Assembly (NCBI GenBank): GCA_021774575.1
Contig: JAJFIX010000042.1
Coordinates: forward strand, 1 to 38,018
Length of the DNA stretch: 38,018 nt
Direction: 5' to 3'
Source: Alphaproteobacteria bacterium
GTDB taxonomy: Bacteria > Pseudomonadota > Alphaproteobacteria > UBA6615
The first letter of the stretch is position 1, and each line of letters begins with the position of its first letter. This document shows positions 3,720 through 26,932 of this stretch, in pieces. The notes beneath the pieces are model-generated. The model searched no databases. It was not told where the DNA came from and worked only from the letters and a program-made list of their open reading frames with translations. Position numbers and translations under genes: made by a program.

Positions 3720-5207
3720 ATGAGCAGCTCAAACGCACCCACCCGGCCACGTCTCGGCGGCTTTACATCCCGCATCGGCGCCATTTCTGGTGGTTTGGCG
3801 GTTTTTGGCGCGATGATTGCCTTGCCGCCACCCGCCGACCTCAGCCCCGCCGCCTGGCATGTTGCCGCTGTCGCCGCGTTGATGGCGGTGTGGTGGATCT
3901 TTGAAGCGGTGCCCGTTGCGGTGACCGCCTTAATGCCAATTTGTTTATTTCCGTTTCTCGACATTTTATCGATCCGCGACACCACCGCACCCTATGCCAA
4001 TCCGCTGATTTTTCTGTTCATGGGTGGTTTCATGATTGCCCTAGCGGTGGAGCGCTGGCATCTCCACCGGCGGATCGCGCTCAATGTGTTGGGATTGTTC
4101 GGCGCCCGCCCGGCACGGCTCGTCGGCGGCTTCATGTGCGCCACGGCGGGTTTGAGCATGTGGGTCAGCAATACAGCGACAACGGTCATGATGCTGCCGG
4201 TTGCGCTCTCGGTCATTGGCTTGCTGAAAGACCATGAAGATACGCAGAGCACTGATCGCGAGAACCGAAACTTTGCCATCGCGCTGCTCTTGGGTACAGC
4301 CTACGCGGCCAGTATCGGTGGGTTGGCGACCCTGGTTGGCACACCGCCCAATGCCCTGCTCGCCGGATATATGGAGCAGGTTTATGACCGTTCCATCGGC
4401 TTTGGCCAGTGGATGCTGGTTGGCCTGCCGCTAACCCTCATATTATTGCCGATTGCCTGGCTGCTGCTGACCCGGTTCATTTTCCCCGTAGCCCACCACG
4501 AAATTACTGGCGCGACGGATATTATCGACGACGAGGTCGAAAAACTCGGGCCGATCACCTATCAAGAAATCGCCGTTGCGCTGGTCTTTGCCGCGACGGC
4601 AGCACTTTGGATCGCGCGCCCGTTGATTAACAAGGCGCTGCCGGGCTCGGGCCTATCTGATGCCGGTATCGCCATCATGGGCGCCGTCGCCCTGTTCATA
4701 ATTCCGGCCAGAACCGGAAAGGGTGACTTCCTGATGAATTGGAATTGGGCGGTTCGCTTGCCCTGGGGGGTCTTGATATTGTTTGGCGGCGGATTGAGCC
4801 TGGCCTCGGCGGTCGACAAAACCGGGCTTGCCGCATGGATCGGCGCGGCTCTCAGCGGCATTGACGGCTGGCCGGTCTATTTGATCCTGCTGGCCATTAT
4901 TGCCGTCGTTATCTTCCTCACCGAAATCACCAGCAACACGGCGACGGCCGCTGTGTTTTTACCGGTCATGGGTGCAGCCGCCCTCACATTCGGGGCCGAT
5001 CCACTGTTTTTTGCCGCGCCAACGGCCATCGCGGCCAGCTGCGCCTTTATGATGCCGGTGGCGACCCCGCCCAATGCGATCATCTTTTCCAGCGGCCATA
5101 TAAAAGTGCCGCAAATGGCGCGGGCGGGACTGCCGTTAAACATCATCTCGATCGCGGTCATTTTAACCGCCGCATATAGCCTCATCGGCTGGGTTTTCGC
5201 CGGCTGA
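3720..5207 (+). CDS. DASS/SLC13-family anion:sodium symporter
   Basis: A 495-residue polytopic membrane protein of the divalent anion:Na+ symporter family (SLC13, CitMHS/ArsB-like fold). Both Na+-binding SNT motifs are present: Ser150-Asn151-Thr152 in WVSNTATTVMMLP and Ser405-Asn406-Thr407 in ITSNTATAAVFLP, each in a re-entrant hairpin of the two inverted repeats. GTPPNALLAGY and VATPPNAIIFSSG are the matching downstream motifs. Members import dicarboxylates, citrate or sulfate; the specificity is not readable. Its location 71 nt after malate synthase suggests C4-dicarboxylate uptake (inference). The ribosome site is weak. The stop at 5207 abuts the stop of the convergent uracil-DNA glycosylase gene with no spacer, so neither gene has room for its own terminator there. 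Confidence 0.9.
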   Translation: MSSSNAPTRPRLGGFTSRIGAISGGLAVFGAMIALPPPADLSPAAWHVAAVAALMAVWWIFEAVPVAVTALMPICLFPFLDILSIRDTTAPYANPLIFLFMGGFMIALAVERWHLHRRIALNVLGLFGARPARLVGGFMCATAGLSMWVSNTATTVMMLPVALSVIGLLKDHEDTQSTDRENRNFAIALLLGTAYAASIGGLATLVGTPPNALLAGYMEQVYDRSIGFGQWMLVGLPLTLILLPIAWLLLTRFIFPVAHHEITGATDIIDDEVEKLGPITYQEIAVALVFAATAALWIARPLINKALPGSGLSDAGIAIMGAVALFIIPARTGKGDFLMNWNWAVRLPWGVLILFGGGLSLASAVDKTGLAAWIGAALSGIDGWPVYLILLAIIAVVIFLTEITSNTATAAVFLPVMGAAALTFGADPLFFAAPTAIAASCAFMMPVATPPNAIIFSSGHIKVPQMARAGLPLNIISIAVILTAAYSLIGWVFAG

Positions 5208-6284: not shown

Positions 6285-8207
6285 ATGACACAGGACCAGC
6301 ATCAATCTCAGACAAAGACCCCGACTTCGTTGCGAAAAACGGATTCCGGGGAAAAATCCGGCGGCCGCGGGCTGCAAGTCATACTGATTTCAGCCGGCTT
6401 GATTGGCTTAATGGTTTTAGCTGTCGGCGTCCGCGAGTATGTCGGTGGACAATCCGGCGAGACCGGGTCCGACACCGGGCCGTCTGCCGAAACCACCGCG
6501 GCACCGTCAAATGCCGTCGCCGAACTGGATAACGAAATTTGGGAATCGCAAGGTGACTCGATTTCCGGCAAATATCTCGCGTCGCGCCACGCCGAGCGCA
6601 CTGGAAATCTGAGCATTGCCGCCGACCTGTTGCTCGAAATTCTTGAGCTTGAACCACAGAATAGCCGCGCCCTGGCCCGCGCTCATATCCTGCTTATCGC
6701 CGAGGGCCGCTTCGACGAAGCGACAATTCTTGCCGAGACCATGCTTGCCGAAGAGGGCAGTAGCTCGGCGCTGGCCGAAATGACCCTGGCCATGCAGGCG
6801 GTCAAAGGCGACGACTATGACGCTGCTTTATCGCATATCCTTAAAATTCCCTATCAGGGTCCCTATGGCTTTTTGATGCCACTCATCGAAGCCTGGACAT
6901 TTATCGGCATGGGCGAGAGTGAAGCGGCAATCGAATCCCTCGACCCACTTGCTAGCAATGGTGCCCTATCGGGGCTGAAGGGCGTACATGCCGGCGTGAT
7001 CGCCGACCAATCCGGCGACATGACCCGGGCCGAAGCGGAATATCTTGTTGCCCTGGGCAACGGTGAGAGCGTGCCGCTACGGGTGGCCGAGCTCTATTTT
7101 TCGTTCCTCAGCCGGCAAGATCGCTGGGAAGAAGCCGAGGCATTTCTTGCCACATATCTAGAACAAAACCGCGATAATTTGATGGCCGACCCGATGGCAC
7201 AAGCGGTGGAAACCCACACCGCGATGCCTCTCCCCATTCCCACCATTCATGCTGGATATGCCGAAGCATTTTATAGCATTGCCAACCGGCTTAATTCAGG
7301 ACGGGCTGATTTAGAGACGTTAATTTTCGTTCGGTTTGCCCGTCATCTCGACCCAGAAAATCCTCGGATTTTATTTTTGCTGGGCGACGTACTGGCCGAC
7401 CAGGATCGCTCGACCGACGCGATCGAAGTGCTGGAGCAAGTCGACACCCAAACACCATTTGGCTGGTATGCACGCCTCAGCATTGCCAGCCGACTGTCCG
7501 AAATGGACCGAGAAATTCAGGCAATTGACATGCTCTCGAACATGATCGATGAGCGACCGGAGCGCACGGATGCGGCCCACACCCTCGGCGATATTCAGCG
7601 TATCGACGAAAACTACGGCGAGGCAGCGGACGCTTATGGCATCGCCATCGAACGGCTGGTCGATCCGGGCGAGCGCGATTGGCAAATTTTTTACACGCGC
7701 GGCATTTCCCTCGAACGTGTCTCCGTTGACCGCGAACTGAGTGACCGGGAAAAAGACGACGCCTGGAGCCAGGCCGAAAGAGATTTCCTCTTCGCCCTCG
7801 AATTAAATCCCGATCAGCCTCAAGTGCTGAATTATCTCGGCTATTCCTGGGTCGAAAAAGGCGTACATCTCGACCAGGCGCGAGAGATGATTTCCAAATC
7901 CGTCAGCCAGAGACCGCGCGACGGCTATATTACCGATTCGATGGGTTGGGTGCTTTATCGGATGGGCGAATACGAAGAAGCGGTGGTCCATTTGGAGCGC
8001 GCCGTTTCCCTGGTCCCGTCGGACCCAATCCTCAATGATCATTTGGGTGATGCCTATTGGCTGGTCGGGCGAACCAATGAGGCACGTTTTCAGTGGGAAC
8101 GGGCATTGGAAAACGAGCCCACCGCAAAGCAGACCGAGGAACTCCGGGCCAAACTGTCCGGCGAGACCGAGCCTCAGCCCCGCCCGCCGGGCCAGGAAGA
8201 AGACTGA
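6285..8207 (+). CDS. Membrane-anchored tetratricopeptide repeat protein
   Basis: A 640-residue TPR protein. A short cytoplasmic tail (1-29) precedes one membrane helix (about 30-47, VILISAGLIGLMVLAVGV), then an acidic linker and an all-helical domain that should sit in the periplasm. TPR-like units are visible from about residue 95, with the clearest in the C-terminal third (NYLGYSWVEKG..., DSMGWVLYRMGEYEEAVVHL, DHLGDAYWLVGRTNEARFQW). The tail is Pro/Gln/Glu-rich. TPR proteins act as protein-docking scaffolds; no partner can be named. A TPR gene directly before ispE is a familiar arrangement in alphaproteobacteria. Its stop overlaps the proposed ispE start. ATG 6285 is chosen because it gives the shortest sensible tail before the helix. 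Confidence 0.85.
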   Translation: MTQDQHQSQTKTPTSLRKTDSGEKSGGRGLQVILISAGLIGLMVLAVGVREYVGGQSGETGSDTGPSAETTAAPSNAVAELDNEIWESQGDSISGKYLASRHAERTGNLSIAADLLLEILELEPQNSRALARAHILLIAEGRFDEATILAETMLAEEGSSSALAEMTLAMQAVKGDDYDAALSHILKIPYQGPYGFLMPLIEAWTFIGMGESEAAIESLDPLASNGALSGLKGVHAGVIADQSGDMTRAEAEYLVALGNGESVPLRVAELYFSFLSRQDRWEEAEAFLATYLEQNRDNLMADPMAQAVETHTAMPLPIPTIHAGYAEAFYSIANRLNSGRADLETLIFVRFARHLDPENPRILFLLGDVLADQDRSTDAIEVLEQVDTQTPFGWYARLSIASRLSEMDREIQAIDMLSNMIDERPERTDAAHTLGDIQRIDENYGEAADAYGIAIERLVDPGERDWQIFYTRGISLERVSVDRELSDREKDDAWSQAERDFLFALELNPDQPQVLNYLGYSWVEKGVHLDQAREMISKSVSQRPRDGYITDSMGWVLYRMGEYEEAVVHLERAVSLVPSDPILNDHLGDAYWLVGRTNEARFQWERALENEPTAKQTEELRAKLSGETEPQPRPPGQEED

Positions 8208-9840: not shown

Positions 9841-12800
9841 ATGTCCGGCAAAAAGCACGCCTGGACGGCCCGCCTATTGGCGGCCGGCAAAAGTTTTCCT
9901 ATGTCAGCAACCCTATTGAGTCTTGGACTCGTAACGGGGTTGGCGCTCTTACCGAAACCGGCATACCCCCAAAACCTTGATGATCCCGGGACCGCCTTCG
10001 CCCGCGATATGGAGGCTCGGCTTGCCGCTCGTATCGAAGCGGAAAGTGACTTTCAAATTGACGGACATCAGGAAGGCGAGGGACCGACACTGGGCGCTGC
10101 CCAGGTAGAACATGTCGCCCAGCTTTTTTCCGGTGGCCCCTGCCCAGTTGGTCTCGACGTTAAGCTCTACGAGATTGCCGCTGTCAGCACGAAAATTACT
10201 CTAAATCGGTGGGGCGATAATGATCCCGACGGTTTCATTTACACGATGGTCGATAATATTGGCGCCGTCCGCGCCCAAGCCGCCGCGAGTGAAGATCAAG
10301 CCTATGGGCTGACCCTTGGTCTCGGTCCCGACGTCATTCAGCCCCTAACCATGCGCGCCAATGTCGGCGATTGCCTGCGTATCTCGCTGACCAACACCCT
10401 GGCCGAGCCAACCTCAATGCATGTCCACGGTGCGGACCTCGTTCTCGCCGGCACCCAAGACCCAGCTCTCTCGACCAACCCCGACGCCATGGCCCTGCCC
10501 GGCGAGACCGTATCCTATGAATGGTATATCGATCCCACCTACTATTCAGAAAACACTCATTACGCGCACCCCCATGGACCGCGCGCCCGGTTCCAAGTCG
10601 GTCACGGACTGTTCGGCGCGGTCATTGTCGAGCCGGAACGTTCCGAATATTACGACCAGCGCGACCGTTCCTTGCTCTGCAGCCCGCGCTCATTTGACGG
10701 CGTAAGGCGCTGCCGAAATAGCTGGGACGCCATGATATCGCCGGGCGAAGGCGTCGATTTTCGCGAATTCGCCATGTTTTATCATGAAATCGGCAACGCT
10801 AAATATGCCGTATTCGACAAAAACGGCGAACAATTACCGATCATTGATCCGATCGTAAATTCCTATAAACCCTCAGGCCGAGCGATTAACTATCGCAGCG
10901 AATCCTTTGCGAACCGATTGCTTGAGAACGAAGAGCAGGTTGCTTTTTACGAGGAGTTTTCCGCCGACGAAGCCCTCGCCTATTCCTCCTACGCCAATGG
11001 CGACCCAGCGACGCCAATCCCCCAAACCTATCTTGGCGATCCGGTAAAATTCCGTTTGATCCACGGCGGCAGTGAGACATTTCACGTTCCCCATTTGCAT
11101 GGCGGCGGCATTCAATGGCAGCGCCAACAGGATATGGGCAAGGACAGCGCCGACGATTATGTGCCGATTAATGCCGGCCTGACCAAGCAATTTGCCGCCT
11201 CAATGCCGAGCTCGGGAAATGATTCCCAGACCATCGGACCATCGGAAACCTATGAAATGGAGATCGCCTGCGGCTCAGGCGGTTGCCAGCAAACCGTCGG
11301 CGACTTCCTGTTCCACTGCCATGTCGCCTCTCACTATGTGTCCGGCATGTGGCATTTTTGGCGGGTCTACAACACCTTACAGTCGGGCCAGGGCAAAACC
11401 GACCGGCTGGCCGTGCTTGCTGAATTGCCCGACAGGCGCGATATCATCGAGCTCCCCGTCACCTCGGAAGGGCTGATCGGCCGCACCGTAGAATTTTCCG
11501 GGCAGACCATACAGGTTGAGGAAGAAAACCTCGCCGAGTTGGTTGAAATGCAGTTGCCGCCCCAGGGCACCCCCCACCATGTGCAGGATGCCCAGGTTTT
11601 CGATTGGCAACGTGAGGGCAATCTATATCTTAACGAGCCGGAAACCGCTTATGTCTGGCCTGACTATGCCTCGCCCGCTCCCGGCGAACGGCCGCCATTT
11701 CTATTTGCCGCCAATACCGGCAAATTTGCCTGGCCGTATTTGCGACCGCATCTTGGGGAACGCCCGCCCTTTGCCCCCCATCATGGCCCGTCGCCATATA
11801 TGGAGCCCTTTGACCACGCCAACGAAGAACCGTCCGCCCCAGGAGCGAATGGAGCCGGCAGCCTGTGTCCGACGGGCGCGCCACGGCGGTTTTATAATGT
11901 TCATGCCATCCAAACACCGATCGAAGTCACCCACGACTTAACCGAAACCGATGGGATGATATTTGTCCTCAAAGAACATGAAGCCAAGGCGCGGTCCGAT
12001 CCCGAGTTTAAAGTTCCGTTGGCAATCCGCGCCAACCAGGGTGACTGCGTCGATATCTTTTTGATCAATGAGCTCGAAGGCTTGCCCAAAGACAATGGTG
12101 AGCACCGCAGTCTACTCAAAACCAACATTCATATTCATTTTGTCCAGTTCGACGTGCAGGCGTCCGACGGAGTGATCACCGGTGCGTCCTTCGAACAAGC
12201 GCCGCGTCCGTTTGCCAGAGACAATCAGTCGGTCGATCTCACGAGCGGCGCAGCAGCGGGCAGTAACCGGCTCGAACTTGCCGATGCGTCGCTCTTTCAC
12301 GTCGGTTCGGTGATTGCCGTCGGCATCGACCAAGCAACGGAGATACTCGAAACCGCGACCATCGCCGCAATCGATGGCCGCACCCTGTCCCTTGTCGAAC
12401 CGCTAAAAAACAATCATGCGATCGGTGAAATTGTCAGTGCCGAATTCGTCCGTTATCGCTGGTTCGTGGCGCGCCAGAATGGGGCGATTTATTATCACGA
12501 TCATGTTGATGCCTTGGCGCGCTGGACCAGGGGGCTGTTTGGCGCCTTGATCGCCGAGCCTCAGGCCTCAACCTGGCATCACCCGAGAACCGGTGAGGAA
12601 ATCACCTCCGGCCCCTTTGCCGATATTCATACTGACCGCGAAGTGGTACCCGGCCTGACCGGAAGTTTCCGCGAATTCGTGTTGTTCATGAACGACCGCA
12701 ATCCTCAAACCGGCAGCTCTTTTAACTTGCGCGCCGAACCTTTGGCTGCCGACACCGACCGCGGCCAAGGGCCCGAGCATCTTCTGCTCAGCTCCACGCT

Positions 12801-14319
12801 CCACGGAGACCCGGCGACGCCAACTTTGCAGGCCTATCCCGGCGACCCAATTATGTTGCGGCTTCTGACGTCGGCGACCGAGGAGGTGCATCCTTTCCAC
12901 ATTACCGGCCACCGGTTCCGTCAAGAACGCTTCCAGGCTAATTCCCCAATGATCAGCAATTTCGGCGTTGGTATCTCTGAACGCTACAACGCCTATATCC
13001 CGTCGGCCGGTGGGGCGGCCGAATTGCCCGGCGACTATTTATATTATAACGCGGCAGAGCGTCATTTCCGCGAGGGCTCGTGGGGACTGCTCAGAGTCTA
13101 TGAGGCCCTATCGGCAAACCTGCAGCCGTTGCCTGGTCGCAAAGTACCCAAAAGTGAACCTCGCGCCGAGATCGCGTCTGGTATTCCCGCCGACGCCACT
13201 GACCCAGGCAATCCTTGCCCGGCGACGGCTAATATTCGTCGATATGCGGTATCAGCGATAGATGCGAGCTACGTGATCAATGCCGCCTCCGGACTACGCC
13301 AACCAAATGGTCGGGTCTATGTGCTCGATTCCGATTTCAGCCCGGCCCGGCTTCCCAGCGAAGATATATCGCCCTTGGTTTTGCGGGCGAATGCCGGAGA
13401 CTGCCTGGAGGTTAGTTTCTCCAATCGCTCGACCAATCCAGCCAGCCTTTATATCGATGGCGCCGAAGTCGATCCCCAAGGGTCCCTTGGTATGACCGTT
13501 GGCTACAATCTCAATCAGGCCACTCAACCGGGATCACGGCGGCTCTATCGTTACTATCTGCCCGATGAAATGGGCGCGTTGCTAATCCGTGATTTCGGCA
13601 GCCCGCTGCAAAATGGTGCTGTTGGCCTCTATGGCGCACTCATCGTCGAACCTGCGGGCGCCACCTATCATGATACGATCACCGATAGCGCACTCAACAG
13701 CGGTGTCGCCGCGGTTATCCGTCTGCCAGGCGGCGAATCGTTTCGCGAATTTGTGACGGTTTTCGCCGATCAAGATCCCGATATCGGACTGTTCCTGATG
13801 CCCTATGACGCCGATGTAGATCGTGAGGCAACGGTTAATTATCGCGCCGAACCGATGCGCCCGCGCACCGCCCTGTTCGGTTTCCTCGAAGACCAGGATT
13901 TCATCAACCCGGCCGATTTCAATATTGCCGCGCGGCTGTTTGATCAGGACATATTTGGGCCGCCCGCGACAAATGTTTTCCCGGCCCTGGCCGGTGAAAC
14001 CGTTCGTTTCCGTGTCATCAGCGGCTTTTCCGAGCAGGTCCAAATGTTTTCTATCGAGGGTCATGAATGGGAACTCACCCCAACCCTGGCCGGTTCCGAT
14101 GTCGTGAGCAGTCGCTACCTCCCCTCGGGAGGAACTCTCAATATCGAATTGAAAAGCCTTGGGGGCCCAGCAAGCCGTCCCGGCGACTATCTATGGAGCA
14201 ACCATCGCCTGCCTTATATGAAGGCCGGGCAATGGGGTCTGCTGCGCGTCCTGCCATCGGACGGACGATTGGCCGGCGCTGCGCCCCAAGACAATCCTTC
14301 TCAATTATCCCTTAGATGA
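9841..14319 (+). CDS. Giant secreted multicopper oxidase with three cupredoxin-pair repeats
   Basis: A 1492-residue exported copper protein, in the size range of the large putative Mn(II) oxidases MnxG and MofA. It has a signal peptide (core about 22-36). Three homologous units follow, each with two cupredoxin-like domains: about 100-510, 675-1090 and 1125-1470. Each repeats FREF (307, 943, 1301) and an N-x-R-x-E motif (350, 962, 1333). Unit 1 has the full copper set: HVHG 194-197, HPHG 243-246, HVPHLH 415-420, and HCHVASHYVSGM 492-503, giving type 1 ligands His415, Cys493, His498 and Met503. Unit 2 keeps HIH 764-766, HDH 886-888 and HPFHITGH 1017-1024 but has Asn for the type 1 Cys. Unit 3 has lost nearly all ligands. 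The substrate is unknown; metal oxidation is an inference from size and layout. GGGGGAG precedes ATG 9841. Confidence 0.85.
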   Translation: MSGKKHAWTARLLAAGKSFPMSATLLSLGLVTGLALLPKPAYPQNLDDPGTAFARDMEARLAARIEAESDFQIDGHQEGEGPTLGAAQVEHVAQLFSGGPCPVGLDVKLYEIAAVSTKITLNRWGDNDPDGFIYTMVDNIGAVRAQAAASEDQAYGLTLGLGPDVIQPLTMRANVGDCLRISLTNTLAEPTSMHVHGADLVLAGTQDPALSTNPDAMALPGETVSYEWYIDPTYYSENTHYAHPHGPRARFQVGHGLFGAVIVEPERSEYYDQRDRSLLCSPRSFDGVRRCRNSWDAMISPGEGVDFREFAMFYHEIGNAKYAVFDKNGEQLPIIDPIVNSYKPSGRAINYRSESFANRLLENEEQVAFYEEFSADEALAYSSYANGDPATPIPQTYLGDPVKFRLIHGGSETFHVPHLHGGGIQWQRQQDMGKDSADDYVPINAGLTKQFAASMPSSGNDSQTIGPSETYEMEIACGSGGCQQTVGDFLFHCHVASHYVSGMWHFWRVYNTLQSGQGKTDRLAVLAELPDRRDIIELPVTSEGLIGRTVEFSGQTIQVEEENLAELVEMQLPPQGTPHHVQDAQVFDWQREGNLYLNEPETAYVWPDYASPAPGERPPFLFAANTGKFAWPYLRPHLGERPPFAPHHGPSPYMEPFDHANEEPSAPGANGAGSLCPTGAPRRFYNVHAIQTPIEVTHDLTETDGMIFVLKEHEAKARSDPEFKVPLAIRANQGDCVDIFLINELEGLPKDNGEHRSLLKTNIHIHFVQFDVQASDGVITGASFEQAPRPFARDNQSVDLTSGAAAGSNRLELADASLFHVGSVIAVGIDQATEILETATIAAIDGRTLSLVEPLKNNHAIGEIVSAEFVRYRWFVARQNGAIYYHDHVDALARWTRGLFGALIAEPQASTWHHPRTGEEITSGPFADIHTDREVVPGLTGSFREFVLFMNDRNPQTGSSFNLRAEPLAADTDRGQGPEHLLLSSTLHGDPATPTLQAYPGDPIMLRLLTSATEEVHPFHITGHRFRQERFQANSPMISNFGVGISERYNAYIPSAGGAAELPGDYLYYNAAERHFREGSWGLLRVYEALSANLQPLPGRKVPKSEPRAEIASGIPADATDPGNPCPATANIRRYAVSAIDASYVINAASGLRQPNGRVYVLDSDFSPARLPSEDISPLVLRANAGDCLEVSFSNRSTNPASLYIDGAEVDPQGSLGMTVGYNLNQATQPGSRRLYRYYLPDEMGALLIRDFGSPLQNGAVGLYGALIVEPAGATYHDTITDSALNSGVAAVIRLPGGESFREFVTVFADQDPDIGLFLMPYDADVDREATVNYRAEPMRPRTALFGFLEDQDFINPADFNIAARLFDQDIFGPPATNVFPALAGETVRFRVISGFSEQVQMFSIEGHEWELTPTLAGSDVVSSRYLPSGGTLNIELKSLGGPASRPGDYLWSNHRLPYMKAGQWGLLRVLPSDGRLAGAAPQDNPSQLSLR

Positions 14320-17553: not shown

Positions 17554-18846
17554 ATGTCAGAGGCAGAACCGAATGCGCCGACCCGGCGTTCCGGCGGCAT
17601 GGCCGCCTTTCAGCATCGCGACTATGTGCTTTACTGGATGTCGAGGGTCATTGGAATTATCGCCATCGAGGCGATGATCACCGCCATCGGCTGGCAGGTC
17701 TATACATTGACCGGCCGGGAGCTGGATCTCGGCCTGGTCGGGCTGGCGCAATTTGCGCCATTTGCCCTGCTCTTTCTAATTTCGGGCATTGCGGCGGATC
17801 GATTTTCGCGGGTACGCATTCTGACCGCTTGTATCAGCTTGCAAGTTATCTGCGCGGCGGCATTTTTCGCCATGACCCTGCTCGGCGCCACCACGTTCGC
17901 CTTGATCTTCCTCATCCTGATTTTCATCGGTGTCGCCCGCGCCTTTCAGGCACCGGCCCAGCAGGCCATCGTGCCCATTCTCGTGCCCAAGGGCACCTTC
18001 GCCAACGCCGTCGCCTGGACCTCTTCGGGCTTTCAGATGGCGCGTATCGCCGGTCCGGCGATCGCCGGATTATTGATCGGTGTCGGTGCCAAATTCGATC
18101 TTTCCGAAGCCATCGTCTACGGTCCAGTCACCATATTATTTGCCATGTCCGCCGCCCTTACATTTTTAATTCGCGCCAAGGCTCAGGTCAAAAGCCAGGC
18201 ACGGGTTTCCCTGACAACGATCCTTGCCGGGATCAAATTCATCTTCCGTAATCAAATCATCCTTGGCGCCATCGGCCTCGATCTTTTTGCTGTTTTACTG
18301 GGCGGCGCCGTTGCTCTGCTGCCCATATTTGCCATCGATATTCTACATGTGGGCGCCGAAGGTTTTGGCATTCTGCGCGCCGTCTTCATGTCTGGCTCGT
18401 TCCTTTGCGCGCTCACTCTAACCCAGCGTCCGATACGCCGACATGCCGGCAAGGCCCTCCTCACCACGGTCGCCATATTCGGCATCGGCGTCATTGTCTT
18501 CGGCACCTCCCAGCTCTTCGTCTTGTCGCTCGGCGCGCTCTTTGTCATGGGGGCCGCCGACGCTATCTCGGTATTCATCCGGCAAAACCTGGTCCAACTC
18601 TCCACCCCCGACGACATGCGCGGGCGCGTCAGCGCCGTCAACGCCGTCTTCATCGGCGCCTCCAACGAGCTGGGCGAATTCGAATCCGGCGTCACTGCCC
18701 ACTGGTGGGGCGTGGTTCCGGCAGTCGTGATAGGCGGAGTTGGCACGGTGCTGGTAGCGGTGGGATTTGCTTTTATTTTCCCGAAACTGCGGCGGGTCGA
18801 TAGCTTGGACCAGGATGAATTAATGGCAAAATCACGCCCTAAATAG
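17554..18846 (+). CDS. MFS transporter (MFS_3/EntS-like)
   Basis: A 430-residue major facilitator with about 11-12 hydrophobic helices. The N-terminal FQHRDYVLYWMSRVIGIIA is typical of the MFS_3 (enterobactin exporter-like) group, as are the cytoplasmic loop DRFSRVRIL between helices 2 and 3, FQAPAQQAIVPILVP, and the late loop STPDDMRGRVSAVNAVFIG. These proteins are proton-coupled exporters of siderophores or drugs; the cargo is unknown. Its end overlaps the end of the convergent DUF2306 gene by 8 nt. Confidence 0.88.
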   Translation: MSEAEPNAPTRRSGGMAAFQHRDYVLYWMSRVIGIIAIEAMITAIGWQVYTLTGRELDLGLVGLAQFAPFALLFLISGIAADRFSRVRILTACISLQVICAAAFFAMTLLGATTFALIFLILIFIGVARAFQAPAQQAIVPILVPKGTFANAVAWTSSGFQMARIAGPAIAGLLIGVGAKFDLSEAIVYGPVTILFAMSAALTFLIRAKAQVKSQARVSLTTILAGIKFIFRNQIILGAIGLDLFAVLLGGAVALLPIFAIDILHVGAEGFGILRAVFMSGSFLCALTLTQRPIRRHAGKALLTTVAIFGIGVIVFGTSQLFVLSLGALFVMGAADAISVFIRQNLVQLSTPDDMRGRVSAVNAVFIGASNELGEFESGVTAHWWGVVPAVVIGGVGTVLVAVGFAFIFPKLRRVDSLDQDELMAKSRPK

Positions 18847-19288
18847 ACCTTCTTACCGCCCCTATAACGCGCGTATGAATGATGGCTCCAGCACAGGCCA
18901 ATATTATGGCGACGACGAGTAAGACGTTCAGACCTACAGCCGCCGCCGCTTGCCCTCCTCCGGCACCGAGCAGCCCGGCATAGGACCACGACATGAGATG
19001 CGCGTGCACGGCAATGCGAGAGGTTCGCCGGTGCGCTAACCGAATGAACGAAAAGCCGGCTATCAGCGTTGCCAGACTAACAACCGCCAAATAGTGAAAG
19101 ACACCAAAAGCCCCTTGAGAATCTTCGTATATCGACAGGGCGGCGCCGTTCACGAAAATCATGGACACGAGATAGATATACCCCATCCAGCGATGGTTGA
19201 CCGTTCCCTTCGGTCGGAAAAAGATCGTCGCGCCGGTCAGCAAGGCGATTACCGCGGCCACCACATGAATGACGCCAAACCAAGTCAT
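18839..19288 (-). CDS. DUF2306 family membrane protein
   Basis: A 149-residue protein with four predicted membrane helices. Features of DUF2306 are visible: FRPKGTVNHRWMGYIYL after helix 1, a second block with HYLAVVSLATLIAGFSFIR, and HAHLMSWSYAGLLGAGGGQ with conserved His residues facing the membrane. The family has no established function, though the conserved histidines invite the idea of metal or haem binding. It starts 16 nt after the stop of the AhpD-like selenoprotein gene on the same strand, so it is probably in one operon with it. Confidence 0.75.
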   Translation of the reverse strand: MTWFGVIHVVAAVIALLTGATIFFRPKGTVNHRWMGYIYLVSMIFVNGAALSIYEDSQGAFGVFHYLAVVSLATLIAGFSFIRLAHRRTSRIAVHAHLMSWSYAGLLGAGGGQAAAAVGLNVLLVVAIILACAGAIIHTRVIGAVRRSI

Positions 19289-19304: not shown

Positions 19305-19967
19305 TCAGTCTTCATTCGGTCCGGGAATAACTTTTGGCCATTGCTCGACCATGGTTGCCAAATATCCGCGCACCTTCTCCGGGTCGAGATGGACCGACCG
19401 CTTGATCTTGGCCACCTCGTCGCCGCTTTCGACAGGGATATGGAGACTGTCGGTGAACCGGTTAAAGAGGTTGAAAAACCCGCTCATCAGGGTGAGTTCG
19501 ATGATTTCTTCTTCGCTGAAGACGTCGCGGACTTGCTCGAAGACACCGTTTTCTTCTTTGGCTGTATTTAGAGTTACATGCTCGGCCCAGAGAATGGCCA
19601 TTTTCTCGCGCTGGGTGAATAGATCGGACGTAAGGTAATCCCCCAACCCGATTTCAATCGTCTGTTCGTCTGTGATGCCTGCCGCTTGACCAAGCGACGT
19701 ATTGTGGGCAATTCAGTATCGACACCCGTTGAGGTGGCTGGTCTTAATGATGACCATTTCTTTGATTTTGGCCGTCAGGATACTGCCCGCACCTTGGCGC
19801 TGCATCGCCGCATTGAACGGGATAAGCAGCTTGGCGACCAAGGGAACTCGCGCCAATACCCGGTATGAATTAGGAACTCGCCCCAGCATGGCGATGACGG
19901 CGGCAAACAGCCGGCTTGTCTCGCCGGTCAATTCCTGGTCGCGAACCAGGCGGATGCGGTCGGCCAT
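19305..19967 (-). CDS. AhpD-like (carboxymuconolactone decarboxylase family) selenoprotein with in-frame TGA as Sec85
   Basis: A single 220-residue gene split in ordinary translation by TGA at 19715-19713. Both halves are in the same frame and both belong to the AhpD/carboxymuconolactone decarboxylase fold. The first half ends in IKTSHLNGCRY (Cys82) and the second begins IAHNTSLGQAAGIT. The family's redox motif is CxxC followed by a His, as in CxYCxAH, so TGA stands exactly where the resolving or attacking Cys belongs, giving Cys82-Arg-Tyr-Sec85-Ile-Ala-His88. Such proteins act as alkylhydroperoxidase-type thiol peroxidases or reductases. A hairpin with a GGUC loop follows the TGA (see the SECIS entry). 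AhpD-like selenoproteins are, as I recall, known from marine metagenomes. GGGAG precedes ATG 19967. The alternative is a nonsense-mutated pseudogene or a sequencing error, which the exact position and the hairpin argue against. Confidence 0.85.
19681..19712 (-). promoter_or_regulatory. Bacterial SECIS element candidate
   Basis: In the mRNA directly after the UGA, 14 nt lead to a 7-bp stem GUCGCUU/AAGCGGC (one U-G pair) capped by the tetraloop GGUC; the stem-loop occupies 19698 down to 19681. The loop starts 21 nt after the UGA, within the usual bacterial spacing, and GGU in the apical loop is the SelB contact seen in E. coli fdhF (loop AGGUCU). A further GCC/GGC pairing could extend the helix. 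The sequence also encodes the protein, as bacterial SECIS elements do. Confidence 0.75.
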
Positions 19968-20024
19968 TAAAGTCTCCCAATTGTTTCTCTGGTTAGTATA
20001 GCGGATTCGCGTATTAGCCCCACC

Positions 20025-22266: not shown

Positions 22267-23232
22267 TCAGCCAGCGTCATTTTGACCCAGCCCCTGCCCA
22301 TAATAGAGCATCGCGCTATGTTCTGCCTCGGCAAAAAACAGCCAGCGCTCGATAAATATGGCGGTTGCCGTGGCAAAAACAGCTAAAATCGACAGACCAA
22401 GATCAACCACCGGGCCGACAAATAGGGCCGCAACGATGAGCATAATTATTGCCCCTCCACCCACGGTCAAACCGATCCGTCGCAATTTTCGCGCATGTTT
22501 GCGCGCCACCCGATAACCCATCTCCCGCATAACAAAATTAGCGCCGCTATGGGGGCCTTCAAGCTGGCGCACCTCTCCTAGATGTTCCATGCCGACCGCC
22601 CGCGCCACTGTCATAAGTCCGCGCGCACGATCGATATGGCGCCAGTACCCCAGCTTTAACCCCCAGGCTATGGCACCGGAAATCACCGCTATCCAAACCG
22701 TCAGATGAAAAACCTCAAGGCCGAGAAGGCGAGTAACAGGCACCAGACAGACCGATCCGGTTGCCAAAGAAAAGGCGAGATAGATCGGTACAACCCAGCC
22801 ATTATTCCAACGGGGAATAGGTTTGAGCGACGCATAAATCATCCCGGTGCAAACAACGGTAATTGCCGCCCCTAGGGCCATTCCCGCCGCCACCAGACCC
22901 CAAGCCCCAGTATTGCGACCGAGGATCACCCAGGCCACAGCCGCCGCCATAGTCGGGGCATAGGTTACCACCGCAGCAACGCCTTCGCGCGCCAACCAGG
23001 AACTCCGCCACTGGCTGAGGGCCCGCCAGGCACGTTCCGGATGACCGAGATGCAGGGTCGACGACAACAAGCCGGCGGTAATGAGGAAAAGAGCCAGCCC
23101 AAAGGCGAGCAAGCCAAACACGCTATTGGGCGGCAATCGCCCGGCCAGCGTCAGGCCACCAAGAAGCCCCAGCATGCCGTATCCCGCGCCCGAGCTGGTG
23201 GTGAAAAATATAACGGAATAGGCTGGATGCAT
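22267..23232 (-). CDS. soeC: Sulfite dehydrogenase membrane anchor subunit (DmsC family)
   Basis: A 321-residue polytopic membrane protein with about eight helices, of the DmsC anchor family. It starts with HPAYSVIFFTTSSGAGYGMLG, characteristic of the family, and contains FLITAGLLSSTLHLGHPERAWRA, where the conserved His-Pro and Glu lie near the quinone or haem-free electron entry site. It should anchor the SoeAB subunits on the cytoplasmic face and pass electrons to ubiquinone. It lies 12 nt after soeB. Its identity as SoeC rather than another DmsC homologue rests on the SoeA-like catalytic subunit. Confidence 0.85.
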   Translation of the reverse strand: MHPAYSVIFFTTSSGAGYGMLGLLGGLTLAGRLPPNSVFGLLAFGLALFLITAGLLSSTLHLGHPERAWRALSQWRSSWLAREGVAAVVTYAPTMAAAVAWVILGRNTGAWGLVAAGMALGAAITVVCTGMIYASLKPIPRWNNGWVVPIYLAFSLATGSVCLVPVTRLLGLEVFHLTVWIAVISGAIAWGLKLGYWRHIDRARGLMTVARAVGMEHLGEVRQLEGPHSGANFVMREMGYRVARKHARKLRRIGLTVGGGAIIMLIVAALFVGPVVDLGLSILAVFATATAIFIERWLFFAEAEHSAMLYYGQGLGQNDAG

Positions 23233-23244
23233 GTCGGTACCGTT

Positions 23245-23982
23245 CTAGCGTGATAAAGTTCGATCGACCCAGGCGAGAAAGCCGGAGAGCTCCGCCCCCT
23301 GGCCCGGCCCGGCGTCATTTGCCGCGCCCGCCTCGGTTTTGCGCGCCCGTGGCGGCAAATAGCGATTGACCGGCTTATAGCCAAGTTCGGGCATCAGCTC
23401 ATAACCGCCACGCCCGGCAACCAATTTCGAAACATCGGACCCCGGATCGCCGAGATCACCAAAGTGCCGCGCGCCAGCGGGGCAGGTGGAGACGCAGGCC
23501 GGAACCCGCCTTCCCTCTTCGATTTCTTCGTCGTAGATCCGGTCAACGCAGAGGGTGCATTTTTTCATCACCCCTTCGGCCTGGTCATATTCGCGCGCGC
23601 CATAGGGGCAGGCCCAGGAGCAGAGCTTACAGCCGATGCACGTATCGTAATTGACCAGAACAATTCCGTCCGTGTCGCGCTTATAAGACGCGCCGGACGG
23701 GCAAACGGTGACGCAGGCTGGCTCCTCGCAATGCAAACAGCTGCGGGGGAAATAGACCGTGCGACTATCGGCGCCCGAGCCTGCTTCATAGGTATGGACC
23801 CGGTTAAACCAAACCCCTTCCGGGTCGGCGCCATAGGGGTCTTTATCGGTCAGCGGACCTGCCTCCCCGCCGGTATTCCATTCTTTGCAATTGACTGCAC
23901 AGGCATGGCAGCCGACACAGATATCAAGGTCGATCACCAAGCCAAGTTTCTTTTCCGGCGGCGTTGTCGGCAGGCTGGTCAT
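23245..23982 (-). CDS. soeB: Sulfite dehydrogenase iron-sulfur subunit
   Basis: A 245-residue electron-transfer subunit of the DmsB/PsrB type. Four cysteine clusters for four [4Fe-4S] centres are seen: CVGCHACAVNC (22-32), CLHCEEPACVTVC, CIGCKLCSWAC, and CTLC with a distant CVSTC. There is no Tat signal. Its ATG overlaps the end of the catalytic subunit gene by 4 nt, which indicates translational coupling. It wires the molybdenum subunit to the membrane anchor. Confidence 0.9.
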   Translation of the reverse strand: MTSLPTTPPEKKLGLVIDLDICVGCHACAVNCKEWNTGGEAGPLTDKDPYGADPEGVWFNRVHTYEAGSGADSRTVYFPRSCLHCEEPACVTVCPSGASYKRDTDGIVLVNYDTCIGCKLCSWACPYGAREYDQAEGVMKKCTLCVDRIYDEEIEEGRRVPACVSTCPAGARHFGDLGDPGSDVSKLVAGRGGYELMPELGYKPVNRYLPPRARKTEAGAANDAGPGQGAELSGFLAWVDRTLSR

Positions 23983-26810
23983 CGCGCGATCACCCCGCCC
24001 AGACGGGTCGGCGGTGGATCCAGAACGTCACGGACCGGCAAAGGGTCAAACTGCGGCATTGCCTCCCCAACTTCTTCGGGCAAGGCCTTAACAATCCGTA
24101 CTTTGAGGTCAAACCATGCCGCCTGGCCGGTAATCGGATCGGAGTTTGAATAGCCGCGCCCCTTGCTCTCTCCCTTGGGCGTTAGAATGTCGGCGATCAG
24201 ATGATTTAACAGAAATCCCTTTGTTGCCTCGGGTGCATCCTCATCAAGGTTCCAGGCACCGCGTCGTTTGCCAATGGCGTTCCACGTCCAAACGGTATCG
24301 GGATTGCACCCCTCCATGCATTTGATTTGGCCTTTGACCCGGCCCCGACCGTTTTCAATCCAAACCCAGTCATCATCGACAAGACCCAGTTTTGCTGCCG
24401 TAGCACTGTTTATGAACAAACGGTTCTGGCCGTGAATTTGGCGCAACCAAGCGTTTTGTGATCCCCAGCTATGATACATCGCCATCGGTCTTTGAGTGAT
24501 TGCATGCAGGGGCAGATCATCCCCGTCGCCATCACTGCCCCCATCGTCAAATGGCGGAAACCAAAAGGGCAGCGGGTCGAAATAGGTCGCTACCCGCCCG
24601 CGATGTTCGTCGGGCGGTTGCACCGGTCCGTGGCCGTTTGCGGCCAGCCTGAACCGCTGCAAGGGCTCGCAATATAGTTGCAGAGTTATCTGTCCGGTAT
24701 GAGCAATCCAGCCCATATCGAAAGCGTAGCGCAAATATCCGCCATTGGCGTGCCGGTAATACCGATGTTCGGGCGGCAATTCATGGCGCCAAAAACAGCC
24801 GTTCTCGATATAGGCGTCGAGCTGCTTGGGATTGACGGCGCCCCGCCCTTGCTCGGTACCCGAAGCGCCCCGCCAACCAGCCAAACTACCGATCCCGGGT
24901 GCACGCTCGTGATTGACGATATAATCGGCATAGCCGCCGGGAAATTTCGCCCCGCCATCGCTATTGGTGAAGGCTGGCAAACCAAGTCGCGCCCCCAAAT
25001 CGATCAGCACATCTTGAAACGGCAGCACATTCCGGTCGGGCTTGACCACCGGTTGACGGATCGCATCGGCAGGCCCATCGGCACTCGATATCGGGCGATC
25101 GAGCATTGAGACCACGTCCCAACGCTCCAAATAAGTTGTATCGGGCAAGATCAAATCGGCATAGGCGACCGTCTCGGAATAGAAGGCGTCGGAATAGATG
25201 ATGTGGGGAATTTTATAGTCGCCGGTTTCTTCATTCTTATCGGTCAGCATGGCAATGGTTTCGCCAGTATTCATCGACGAGTTCCAGCCCATATTGGCCA
25301 TATACATAAACAAGGTATCGATCGGATAGGGATCCCCCGCCCAGGCATTGCGAATGACCATATGCATCATGCCGTGGGCGGCCAGGGGGTATTCCCAAGA
25401 AAACGCTTTATCGAGGCGGGCCGGGCTTCCATCTGCCTCGACCAGAAGATCTTTCGGCTCTTGGGGAAAGCCAAGGGGCATGCCTGGCATCGGTGTATCT
25501 GGATTTACCTGCGACGGCTTTCCGACCGGTTTGGGGCCGGGGGGCACGGGCTTGGGAAACGGCGCCTTATAGAGCGACCCACCGGGGCAATCGATACTGC
25601 CGAGAAGCATCTGCAAAACATGCAGAGCACGGCAGGTTTGAAAACCATTGGCATGGGCCGAGATGCCCCGCATCGCATGCATCGCGACAGGGCGTCCAGT
25701 GGTCTTTGAATGCTTGCGGCCGACCCAATCGGTCCAGGGAATATCAAGGGTAATCTCTTGGGAAAACGCGGCTTGCGCCAGCTCGGCAGCAATGCGCCGA
25801 ATTGTGCCAGCGGGCACGCCGCATTTATCGGCGACCGCGTCGGGGGCATTTTCCGCCGCCAGATAACGTTGGGCCATCAAATGTAGAACCGGCGCCACCC
25901 TGGCGCCACCGGGCAGCTCAAATTCACCGGCCAAAGCCGGGTTTATGCTCGGCAAGTGTGCCCCGACCGTCAAGCCGCGCGCATTGTCCCAGGCAAGTGG
26001 GTTGCCGAGCCCGTCGCGGATGAACAGCCCATGTTCGGGGCTATCCTCATCCAGCGACACCAGCCAGTGAGCGTTGGTGTAGCGGACAAGATAATCGAGA
26101 TCGATTTTACGGGTTCGCATTAATTCGTGAATCAGCGCCAGAACAAACAACCCGTCGGTTCCCGGCTTTATTCCGACCCATTCATCAGCGATTGCCGAAT
26201 AGCCGGTGCGCACTGGGTTGACCGAGACAAATTTTGCCCGACCACCGGTTTTTAATTTACCAAGCCCTGCTTTGATCGGATTGGAATCATGGTCCTCGGC
26301 AACGCCGAACATGAGAAAATAACGGGTCTTTTCCCAGTCAGGTTCACCAAATTCCCAAAACGAACCACCAATTGAATAGAGCCCAGCAGCCGCCATATTG
26401 ACCGAACAGAAACCGCCATGGGCGGCAAAATTGGGCGTACCGAACTGGCTCGCCCAATAGCCCGTCATCGCTTGGCTTTGATCGCGCCCGGTGAAAAAGG
26501 CAAGTCGGCGTGGGTCCCTCGCCCGAATATTTGAAAGCCAAGTGGTCGCCGTTTCGAGCGCCTCGTCCCAGCTAATTTCCTCAAATTCGCCGCTGCCCCT
26601 CGGGCCGACCCGCTTTAAGGGACCGGTCAGTCGGGCCGGGGAATTATGATGCATAATGCCCGCCGACCCTTTGGCGCAGAGGACGCCTTTATTGATCGGG
26701 TGATCCTTGTTCCCCTCGATATAGCGAACCTTGTTGCCGTCCAGATGCACCTTGATGCCGCAACGGCAGGCGCACATATAACAAGTTGTGGTTTTGACGT
26801 CCGTCGCCAT
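23979..26810 (-). CDS. soeA: Sulfite dehydrogenase molybdopterin catalytic subunit (SoeA-like)
   Basis: A 943-residue molybdopterin oxidoreductase of the DMSO reductase family. The N-terminal [4Fe-4S] motif is Cys10-x2-Cys13-x3-Cys17 ... Cys45, followed by VLCAKGSAGIMHH. The likely Mo ligand is Cys135 in AAHGGFCSVNMAA. FMFGVAEDH-like and FVSVNPVRTGYSAIADEW segments and the molybdopterin-binding C-terminal domain (MYHSWGSQNAWLRQIHGQN) match what I know of SoeA. No Tat signal is present, in line with cytoplasmic SoeABC, which oxidises sulfite to sulfate and feeds the quinone pool. Polysulfide or thiosulfate reductase (PsrA/PhsA) is the alternative, but those carry Tat signals. Start: ATG 26810 after a G-rich stretch is preferred to GTG 26834. 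Confidence 0.85.
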   Translation of the reverse strand: MATDVKTTTCYMCACRCGIKVHLDGNKVRYIEGNKDHPINKGVLCAKGSAGIMHHNSPARLTGPLKRVGPRGSGEFEEISWDEALETATTWLSNIRARDPRRLAFFTGRDQSQAMTGYWASQFGTPNFAAHGGFCSVNMAAAGLYSIGGSFWEFGEPDWEKTRYFLMFGVAEDHDSNPIKAGLGKLKTGGRAKFVSVNPVRTGYSAIADEWVGIKPGTDGLFVLALIHELMRTRKIDLDYLVRYTNAHWLVSLDEDSPEHGLFIRDGLGNPLAWDNARGLTVGAHLPSINPALAGEFELPGGARVAPVLHLMAQRYLAAENAPDAVADKCGVPAGTIRRIAAELAQAAFSQEITLDIPWTDWVGRKHSKTTGRPVAMHAMRGISAHANGFQTCRALHVLQMLLGSIDCPGGSLYKAPFPKPVPPGPKPVGKPSQVNPDTPMPGMPLGFPQEPKDLLVEADGSPARLDKAFSWEYPLAAHGMMHMVIRNAWAGDPYPIDTLFMYMANMGWNSSMNTGETIAMLTDKNEETGDYKIPHIIYSDAFYSETVAYADLILPDTTYLERWDVVSMLDRPISSADGPADAIRQPVVKPDRNVLPFQDVLIDLGARLGLPAFTNSDGGAKFPGGYADYIVNHERAPGIGSLAGWRGASGTEQGRGAVNPKQLDAYIENGCFWRHELPPEHRYYRHANGGYLRYAFDMGWIAHTGQITLQLYCEPLQRFRLAANGHGPVQPPDEHRGRVATYFDPLPFWFPPFDDGGSDGDGDDLPLHAITQRPMAMYHSWGSQNAWLRQIHGQNRLFINSATAAKLGLVDDDWVWIENGRGRVKGQIKCMEGCNPDTVWTWNAIGKRRGAWNLDEDAPEATKGFLLNHLIADILTPKGESKGRGYSNSDPITGQAAWFDLKVRIVKALPEEVGEAMPQFDPLPVRDVLDPPPTRLGGVIAR

Positions 26811-26932
26811 TCGCCCCCCGTCCGATGGAATCACCTATGACGGTACAAATAACACAAAATTTGAGTGTAAAAAAGTGCTTCGGGCGCTATATGTTACGGG
26901 TGCTCATATTGGACTGAAATAGGACCCGGTAG

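Follow-up and report, generated by a model that had tools for sequence, protein, structure and literature searches.

A gene for a probable CxxU-type AhpD-like selenoprotein in an alphaproteobacterial genome, with a conserved hairpin downstream of its in-frame UGA

We report that a minus-strand gene at positions 19305-19967 of the window (the whole 38,018-nucleotide stretch of alphaproteobacterial DNA analysed) in all likelihood encodes one 220-residue AhpD/CMD-fold selenoprotein with UGA codon 85 specifying selenocysteine (Sec), a reading to which we assign a probability of roughly 0.92 on the strength of sequence comparisons. Its basis is a single reading frame, a Sec machinery in the same genome, a conserved TGA, a hairpin under selection and a predicted fold.

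Standard ORF calling presents the gene as two ORFs (19967-19713 and 19646-19305, both on the minus strand), which the original prediction had placed in one frame with a single TGA between them. Inspection of the sequence bore this out: the coordinates are correct, TGA at 19715-19713 (codon 85) is the sole internal stop, and the 220 codons contain no further stop besides this one and the terminal TGA. The read-through product extends from M1 to D220 and carries the motif C82-R-Y-U85-I-A-H88, and homologues match it on both sides of codon 85. The features of the gene are listed here with the basis of each assignment; two alignments of selected sequences were used, A2 with 27 rows and A3 with 18.

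19305-19967, minus: probable AhpD-like selenoprotein gene, 220 aa when read through (ATG 19967-19965, terminal TGA 19307-19305)
19713-19715, minus: UGA codon 85, probably read as Sec, at the second Cys position of CxxC (frame and homologue alignment)
19722-19724, minus: Cys82 codon, putative partner (resolving) thiol of CxxU (alignment A2)
19704-19706, minus: His88 codon, Sec +3 (alignment A2)
19758-19760, minus: Glu70 codon, 12 residues before Cys82 (AhpD spacing comparison)
19681-19698, minus: SECIS-type hairpin with a 7-bp stem (folding, conservation, covariation and frozen codons)
19688-19691, minus: GGUC apical tetraloop (comparison of Sec and Cys rows)
19974-19978, minus: Shine-Dalgarno-like GGGAG preceding the ATG (seen in the nucleotide sequence)
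18839-19288, minus: DUF2306 membrane protein gene, downstream (ORF list and domain search)

The claim that the TGA replaces the second Cys of the CxxC motif held when homologues were aligned at this codon: of 76 homologous rows, 29 have Sec (U) in this column, 46 have Cys and one has Ser. These 76 rows were kept for the tree from 90 matches, after removal of matches with E over 1e-9, those shorter than 110 aa, duplicates, and loci L001 and L023. A scan of genome contigs for homologues returned 21 loci, and the four closest genes (L053-L056, 73-75% identity), whose sources are designated Rhodospirillales or Alphaproteobacteria MarineAlpha3, carry TGA at codon 85 in four of four cases. As L053 and L054 are near-identical and come from isolates with similar names, the four assemblies do not represent four fully independent cases. 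At the level of the order, the genomes searched were the 24 already included for the family, and at class level (385 genomes drawn evenly from the larger group) matches at E <= 1e-60 occurred in five genomes, each being either the own genome or a member of its family. The branch spans one bacterial family and its kin, within the Alphaproteobacteria according to the nearest named relatives. Plasmid sequences yielded 408 matching records, every one below 60% identity, and tblastn found a relative encoded in none of the 91 stretches of viral contigs that matched a pattern. At another locus (L084 779-1357, genome G006) a homologue has Cys at the Sec position and TGA and TAG elsewhere, and is perhaps a decaying copy.

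Strong purifying selection acts on the part of the gene that follows the TGA, with dN/dS of 0.080 versus L053 and 0.068 versus L054 (0.182 and 0.243, respectively, before the TGA), which argues that this is not a gene truncated at codon 84; dS was saturated versus L055 and L056, giving no ratio.

The selA, selB, selC and selD genes, whose absence would have spoken against Sec insertion, were sought in the genome as the original prediction had proposed, and all four are present in the assembly (3.5 Mb in 46 contigs, 96.9% complete). On contig C45 lie selA (268452-269567, 521.7 bits), selB (269624-271513, 425 bits), selC encoding tRNA-Sec (271629-271718, 64.5 bits versus a gathering threshold of 47, with ARAGORN also reporting tRNA-SeC with anticodon tca) and selD (264573-265493, 276 bits). 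The selD frame encodes a 753-aa fusion of a Pyr_redox_2 domain (residues 10-317) to two AIRS domains, resembling the Ndh-SelD fusions as outlined in PMC2398784. Of the 24 genomes of the own family, 22 gave a SelA match, weak in G009 (34 bits) and G013 (46 bits), and G011 and G019 gave none. The latter genome (assembly 87% complete) does have a TGA row and so counts against a perfect association.

Two CMD-family genes with 32% mutual identity (L074 6771-8046, G000:C45:266771-268046) are located between selD and selA-selB-selC, which run divergently. One member (7363-8046, minus) contains an in-frame TGA within a CNYUGNVRS motif, belongs to a clade separate from that of the window gene and is, we take it, of the COG2128 type, and the other (6771-7310, minus) is without the Cys pair. 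Locus L062 has a similar pair of a U-containing and a Cys-less gene (3905-4396 and 4544-4987). A complex may exist between the Sec protein, linked as it is to the Sec machinery, and its Cys-less partner.

We then turn to the SECIS element, for which the original prediction had suggested a computational check. With limits coded directly from the published bacterial model, a hairpin downstream of UGA85 falls within those limits and is conserved. As given in PMC13188914, the model specifies an apical loop of 3-9 nt with G in the first two places, a stem of 4-16 bp, a distance of 16-37 nt from the UGA and an MFE <= -7.5. The hairpin has a 4-nt GGUC loop on a stem of 7 bp, the loop being 21 nt after the UGA, and an energy of -7.5 kcal/mol that is exactly at the limit of the model; it spans nt 18-35 when the U of UGA is counted as nt 1. 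Rows with Cys and rows with Sec were compared, with His at +3 required, which retained 26 of the 29 U rows (the omitted ones being the two of L062 and that of L074) and 37 of the 46 C rows. All 26 Sec rows have a GGTC loop versus 4 of 37 Cys rows, stem pairs are formed at 93% versus 49%, and none of the Cys rows pairs at more than five of the seven stem positions. The Sec-type hairpin is carried by all five genes of the closest group (the window gene and L053-L056), in which hairpin codons 91-95 are identical in five of five cases versus 10 of 123 other amino-acid-invariant degenerate codons.

Pairing was also assessed by shuffling. Among the 22 distinct Sec rows, 92.2% of cells are paired versus 75.8% in shuffled alignments (0/500 as high), the covariation score is 0.587 versus 0.263 (0/500), and sliding the partner strand by 1-3 columns lowers pairing to 26-53%. 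Two-sided changes are found in four of the seven stem pairs, a count matched by 63/500 shuffles, while the number of stem pair types was reached by 463/500; at one stem position, 12 of these rows have a G-G mismatch. When the sequence is folded singly, the hairpin is unremarkable (z -1.14, 22/200 shuffles as good). A loose single-sequence SECIS rule was rejected as sole evidence, since 65 of the 1103 TGAs of the window pass it, including the terminal UGA of the gene itself (-10.9); coded without mismatches, the rule passes 14 of 29 Sec rows and one of 46 Cys rows. A GGUC loop on a stem of at least 6 bp at SECIS distance follows only two of the 1103 window TGAs, and the second of these (17708, plus strand) was dismissed as a chance occurrence, lying in an MFS gene in another frame (10 codons before, 22 after). 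Rfam searches gave no match on the window at gathering thresholds and nothing relevant on L023, L053, L055, L077 and L079 at E <= 1, where one sub-threshold snoRNA match reached 27.2 of 100 bits. The case for this putative SECIS element rests on the comparison across rows, which we find convincing.

How else might an in-frame TGA at this codon have arisen? A pseudogene, or two independent fragments, would result if the Cys codon had mutated to TGA and left a protein truncated at residue 84, and both the split ORF call and the nearest rows in the sampled family, which among the matches listed are Cys forms without a stop, are in line with such a decay. It is nonetheless very improbable: the same TGA recurs in four other assemblies at 73-75% identity, dN/dS versus L053/L054 stays at 0.07-0.08 beyond it, the 220 codons hold no other stop, the hairpin is frozen and covarying, and the genome has a complete Sec machinery. 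Still less probable is that the true codon is TGC or TGT and the TGA an error of sequencing or assembly. The assembly is a draft in 46 contigs, but the four other assemblies with TGA at this codon make such an error very unlikely, as does the fact that the hairpin seen in all five genes is fully formed in 0 of 37 Cys rows. Near-cognate readthrough of the UGA (as Trp or Cys), or reassignment of UGA in this organism, would likewise keep the frame open, and we consider it barely credible: the gene terminates with TGA, as do L055 and L056, so that UGA is a stop in this very gene; tRNA-Sec (anticodon tca) and SelB are encoded in the genome; and the residue aligned in relatives is Cys, not Trp. The selenoprotein reading that had originally been proposed is, by comparison, supported jointly by the frame, the conserved TGA, the Sec machinery and the conserved, covarying hairpin. 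On this reading, UGA codon 85 would be decoded as Sec by the genome's own SelA-SelB-tRNA-Sec-SelD system, SelB being recruited by the GGUC-loop hairpin that begins 14 nt past the UGA, while the terminal UGA of the same gene would end translation.

The protein belongs to the CMD domain family (Pfam PF02627, 37.1 bits versus a cut-off of 23) and is accepted by TIGR00778 (ahpD_dom, 30 bits versus 27.8), a model that also accepts L077, the other tested relatives being rejected or unlisted. TIGR01926 (peroxidase-related enzyme) matches 27 of the 27 rows of A2 at E <= 1e-3, with 65.4 bits for the window protein and 40.4 to 79.7 bits for nine relatives of the branch (L053 being closest, at 79.7), all below the curated cut-off of 81.8. 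The scores against the NF053654 GroundWater_YciW (seleno)protein (65.4 bits) and NF041238 AhpD_rel_CFYUT (seleno)protein (33.1 bits) models are likewise below the curated cut-offs of 310 and 175, respectively. Thus 10 of 10 branch members tested, the window protein and nine relatives, fell below the specific NCBIfam cut-offs (TIGR01926, NF053654 and NF041238); the relatives come from a selection of 10 proteins, nine of them of this branch. An AlphaFold2 model built from the 18-row alignment with C in place of Sec (pLDDT 85.4) has the all-helical AhpD fold. Peroxidase-related proteins of the AhpD type head the list of structural matches, with VIA Z scores that differ by no more than about 1: 6k40 (Z 21.4, rmsd 2.8, 184 residues aligned), 2oyo (21.0, 3.0, 184) and 6e8l (20.8, 2.5, 178). 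Further matches are the Bmp8 debrominase (Z 19.2, rmsd 2.8, 177 aligned) and Mycobacterium tuberculosis AhpD 1gu9 (Z 12.1, rmsd 2.6, 136 aligned). The protein is therefore predicted by the model to fold as the AhpD/CMD "peroxidase-related" type.

We compared the active site with the catalytic relay of AhpD (Glu118, Cys130, His132, Cys133 and His137), in which Cys133 is the attacking Cys. A Glu at -12 together with a CxxC/CxxU motif is present (E70, C82, U85), and the His expected four residues after the second Cys is not: the window protein has H88 at +3 and N89 at +4. All 27 rows of A2 have both Cys82 and the His at Sec +3, but some Sec clades have lost Glu70. The enzyme would most likely be a small thiol/selenol oxidoreductase in which Sec85, at the position of AhpD Cys133, attacks a peroxide-type oxidant, Cys82 then makes a Se-S bond, and a cellular thiol reduces this bond. 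Like Sec insertion itself, this chemistry, the substrate, the reductant and the higher activity envisaged in the original prediction are what we infer for the enzyme. Because of the His at +3 and the loss of Glu70 in some Sec clades, an AhpD-like peroxidase/reductase mechanism with peroxide chemistry is most likely but not certain, and we favour it with some reserve.

A possible though less likely reading is that the protein is a selenoprotein but not a peroxidase, Sec attacking another electrophile as in a Bmp8-like reductive dehalogenase or a thiol-disulfide oxidoreductase. Bmp8 (6ohi/6ohj) is among both the sequence matches (8.1e-7) and the fold matches (Z 19), but at 16-17% identity it is no closer than several peroxidase-related structures. 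The His at +3 and the loss of Glu70 in some Sec clades speak against an unaltered AhpD relay, and 20 selected neighbour ORFs of relatives include an FAA hydrolase, TPP enzymes, a TauD-type dioxygenase and a zinc dehydrogenase; these neighbours, however, vary between loci and include transporters and other genes. Bmp8 has been likened to thyroid deiodinase, and on a far more speculative note the whole CxxUxxHN branch could, instead of being an alkylhydroperoxidase, reduce organic electrophiles by means of Sec, perhaps as a bacterial reductive dehalogenase of CMD fold that uses Sec in the manner of thyroid deiodinase, with several paralogues generated in these Alphaproteobacteria by repeated Sec/Cys exchange; we regard this as a long shot. 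A peroxidase-type thiol/selenol oxidoreductase remains our preferred view of the enzyme.

As the column of codon 85 varies between Sec and Cys, we analysed its history on a tree of the 76 rows from which the Sec column was excluded. L053-L056 group with the window gene in a clade of Sec rows (support 100/98) placed beside 26 Cys rows, with a support of only 95/63 for the joint placement. Parsimony requires a minimum of six U/C changes over all 76 rows and four in an inner group of 57 of the 76 rows that was used for the clade test under a plainer model, where the test rejects one single split between Sec and Cys rows (p-AU 4.6e-8). As far as the aligned sequences record it, this shows that the branch underwent more than one Sec/Cys exchange, making it usable as a natural series for studying the advantage of Sec over Cys within a single fold.

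Several relatives carry more than one such gene. Clusters in which a Cys form accompanies two distinct genes for AhpD-like selenoproteins, each within about 13-17 kb, occur at L081 (5132-5671, 13730-14296 and 17308-17934) and L082 (2122-2751, 6054-6617 and 18192-18734), in two genomes of the own family. L053 (1988-2638), L054 (1985-2638) and L055 (50-691, minus) each have a further gene for an AhpD-like selenoprotein, belonging to a different clade; it is divergent from the gene that is closely homologous to that of the window and 0.2 to 1.4 kb away from it. No second gene of this kind was detected in the window by the same search.

Downstream of the selenoprotein gene, the DUF2306 gene begins 16 bases after the stop and is perhaps co-transcribed, a neighbour that was not found in the relatives compared. 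A blastp comparison of the window ORFs with the ORFs of 21 out of 93 loci revealed no conserved neighbourhood: besides the gene itself and antisense ORFs, only FAA-hydrolase and zinc-dehydrogenase matches (29-45% identity) were obtained, whose counterparts in the window sit 12-19 kb away from the gene. With the neighbourhood unconserved in these 21 loci, context gives no clue to the substrate. Elsewhere in the window are a three-gene molybdopterin oxidoreductase operon (22267-26834, minus) for catalytic, 4Fe-4S and DmsC/NrfD-like anchor subunits, with thiosulfate reductase PhsA as top NCBIfam match (224/694 bits), and a gene for a 1492-aa protein with multicopper oxidase domains Cu-oxidase, _2 and _3 (9841-14319, plus).

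That CxxU AhpD-like selenoproteins had been reported from bacteria, as the original prediction stated, is borne out by what PMC1088965 and PMC2398784 say of them. The Sargasso Sea survey of 2005 describes CMD domain-containing selenoproteins (4 sequences; PMC1088965), and the GOS survey of 2008 describes AhpD-like 1 (COG2128, 299 sequences) and AhpD-like 2 (pfam02627, 70 sequences; PMC2398784). The window protein shares with these the CxxU motif, the AhpD/CMD domain and a SECIS-type stem-loop past the UGA, the agreement with GOS AhpD-like 2 being one of domain and motif. A 2026 review lists CxxU AhpD-like proteins with TIGR01926, PF02627 and NF041238 (PMC13188914), and its TIGR01926 AhpD-like protein has the same CxxU motif as the window protein. 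With such proteins already in print, the finding is less novel. Literature searches for selenocysteine together with debrominase and for selenoprotein with Rhodospirillales and metagenome-assembled returned nothing, and the matches listed for debrominase, Bmp8 and deiodinase concerned adipose tissue, metabolism and thyroid hormone.

At the level of structure, the fold is common to PA0269 (2o4d, 2ijc) and M. tuberculosis AhpD (1gu9, 1knc). The spacing of Glu118 and Cys130 in the latter equals that of Glu70 and Cys82 (12 residues), and Tyr84 is the equivalent of Tyr50 that precedes the second Cys of PA0269. Both of these proteins have a second Cys and a His at +4, whereas the window protein has Sec, His at +3 and Asn at +4. 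The Bmp8 debrominase (6ohi, 6ohj) has a CMD fold as well, dehalogenation by the window protein being hypothetical at 16-17% identity. NF053654 and NF041238 are related AhpD-fold (seleno)protein families to which neither the window protein nor any of nine relatives belongs. The analysis removes a false pseudogene, yields a covariation-supported set of SECIS elements with a fixed GGUC loop, and makes the window gene a well-supported further example of a kind of selenoprotein known from the sea since 2005; what appears to be new, judging from the comparisons made here, is a branch whose tested members score below the specific NCBIfam cut-offs, whose active-site His comes one residue early and in which Sec and Cys were exchanged more than once.
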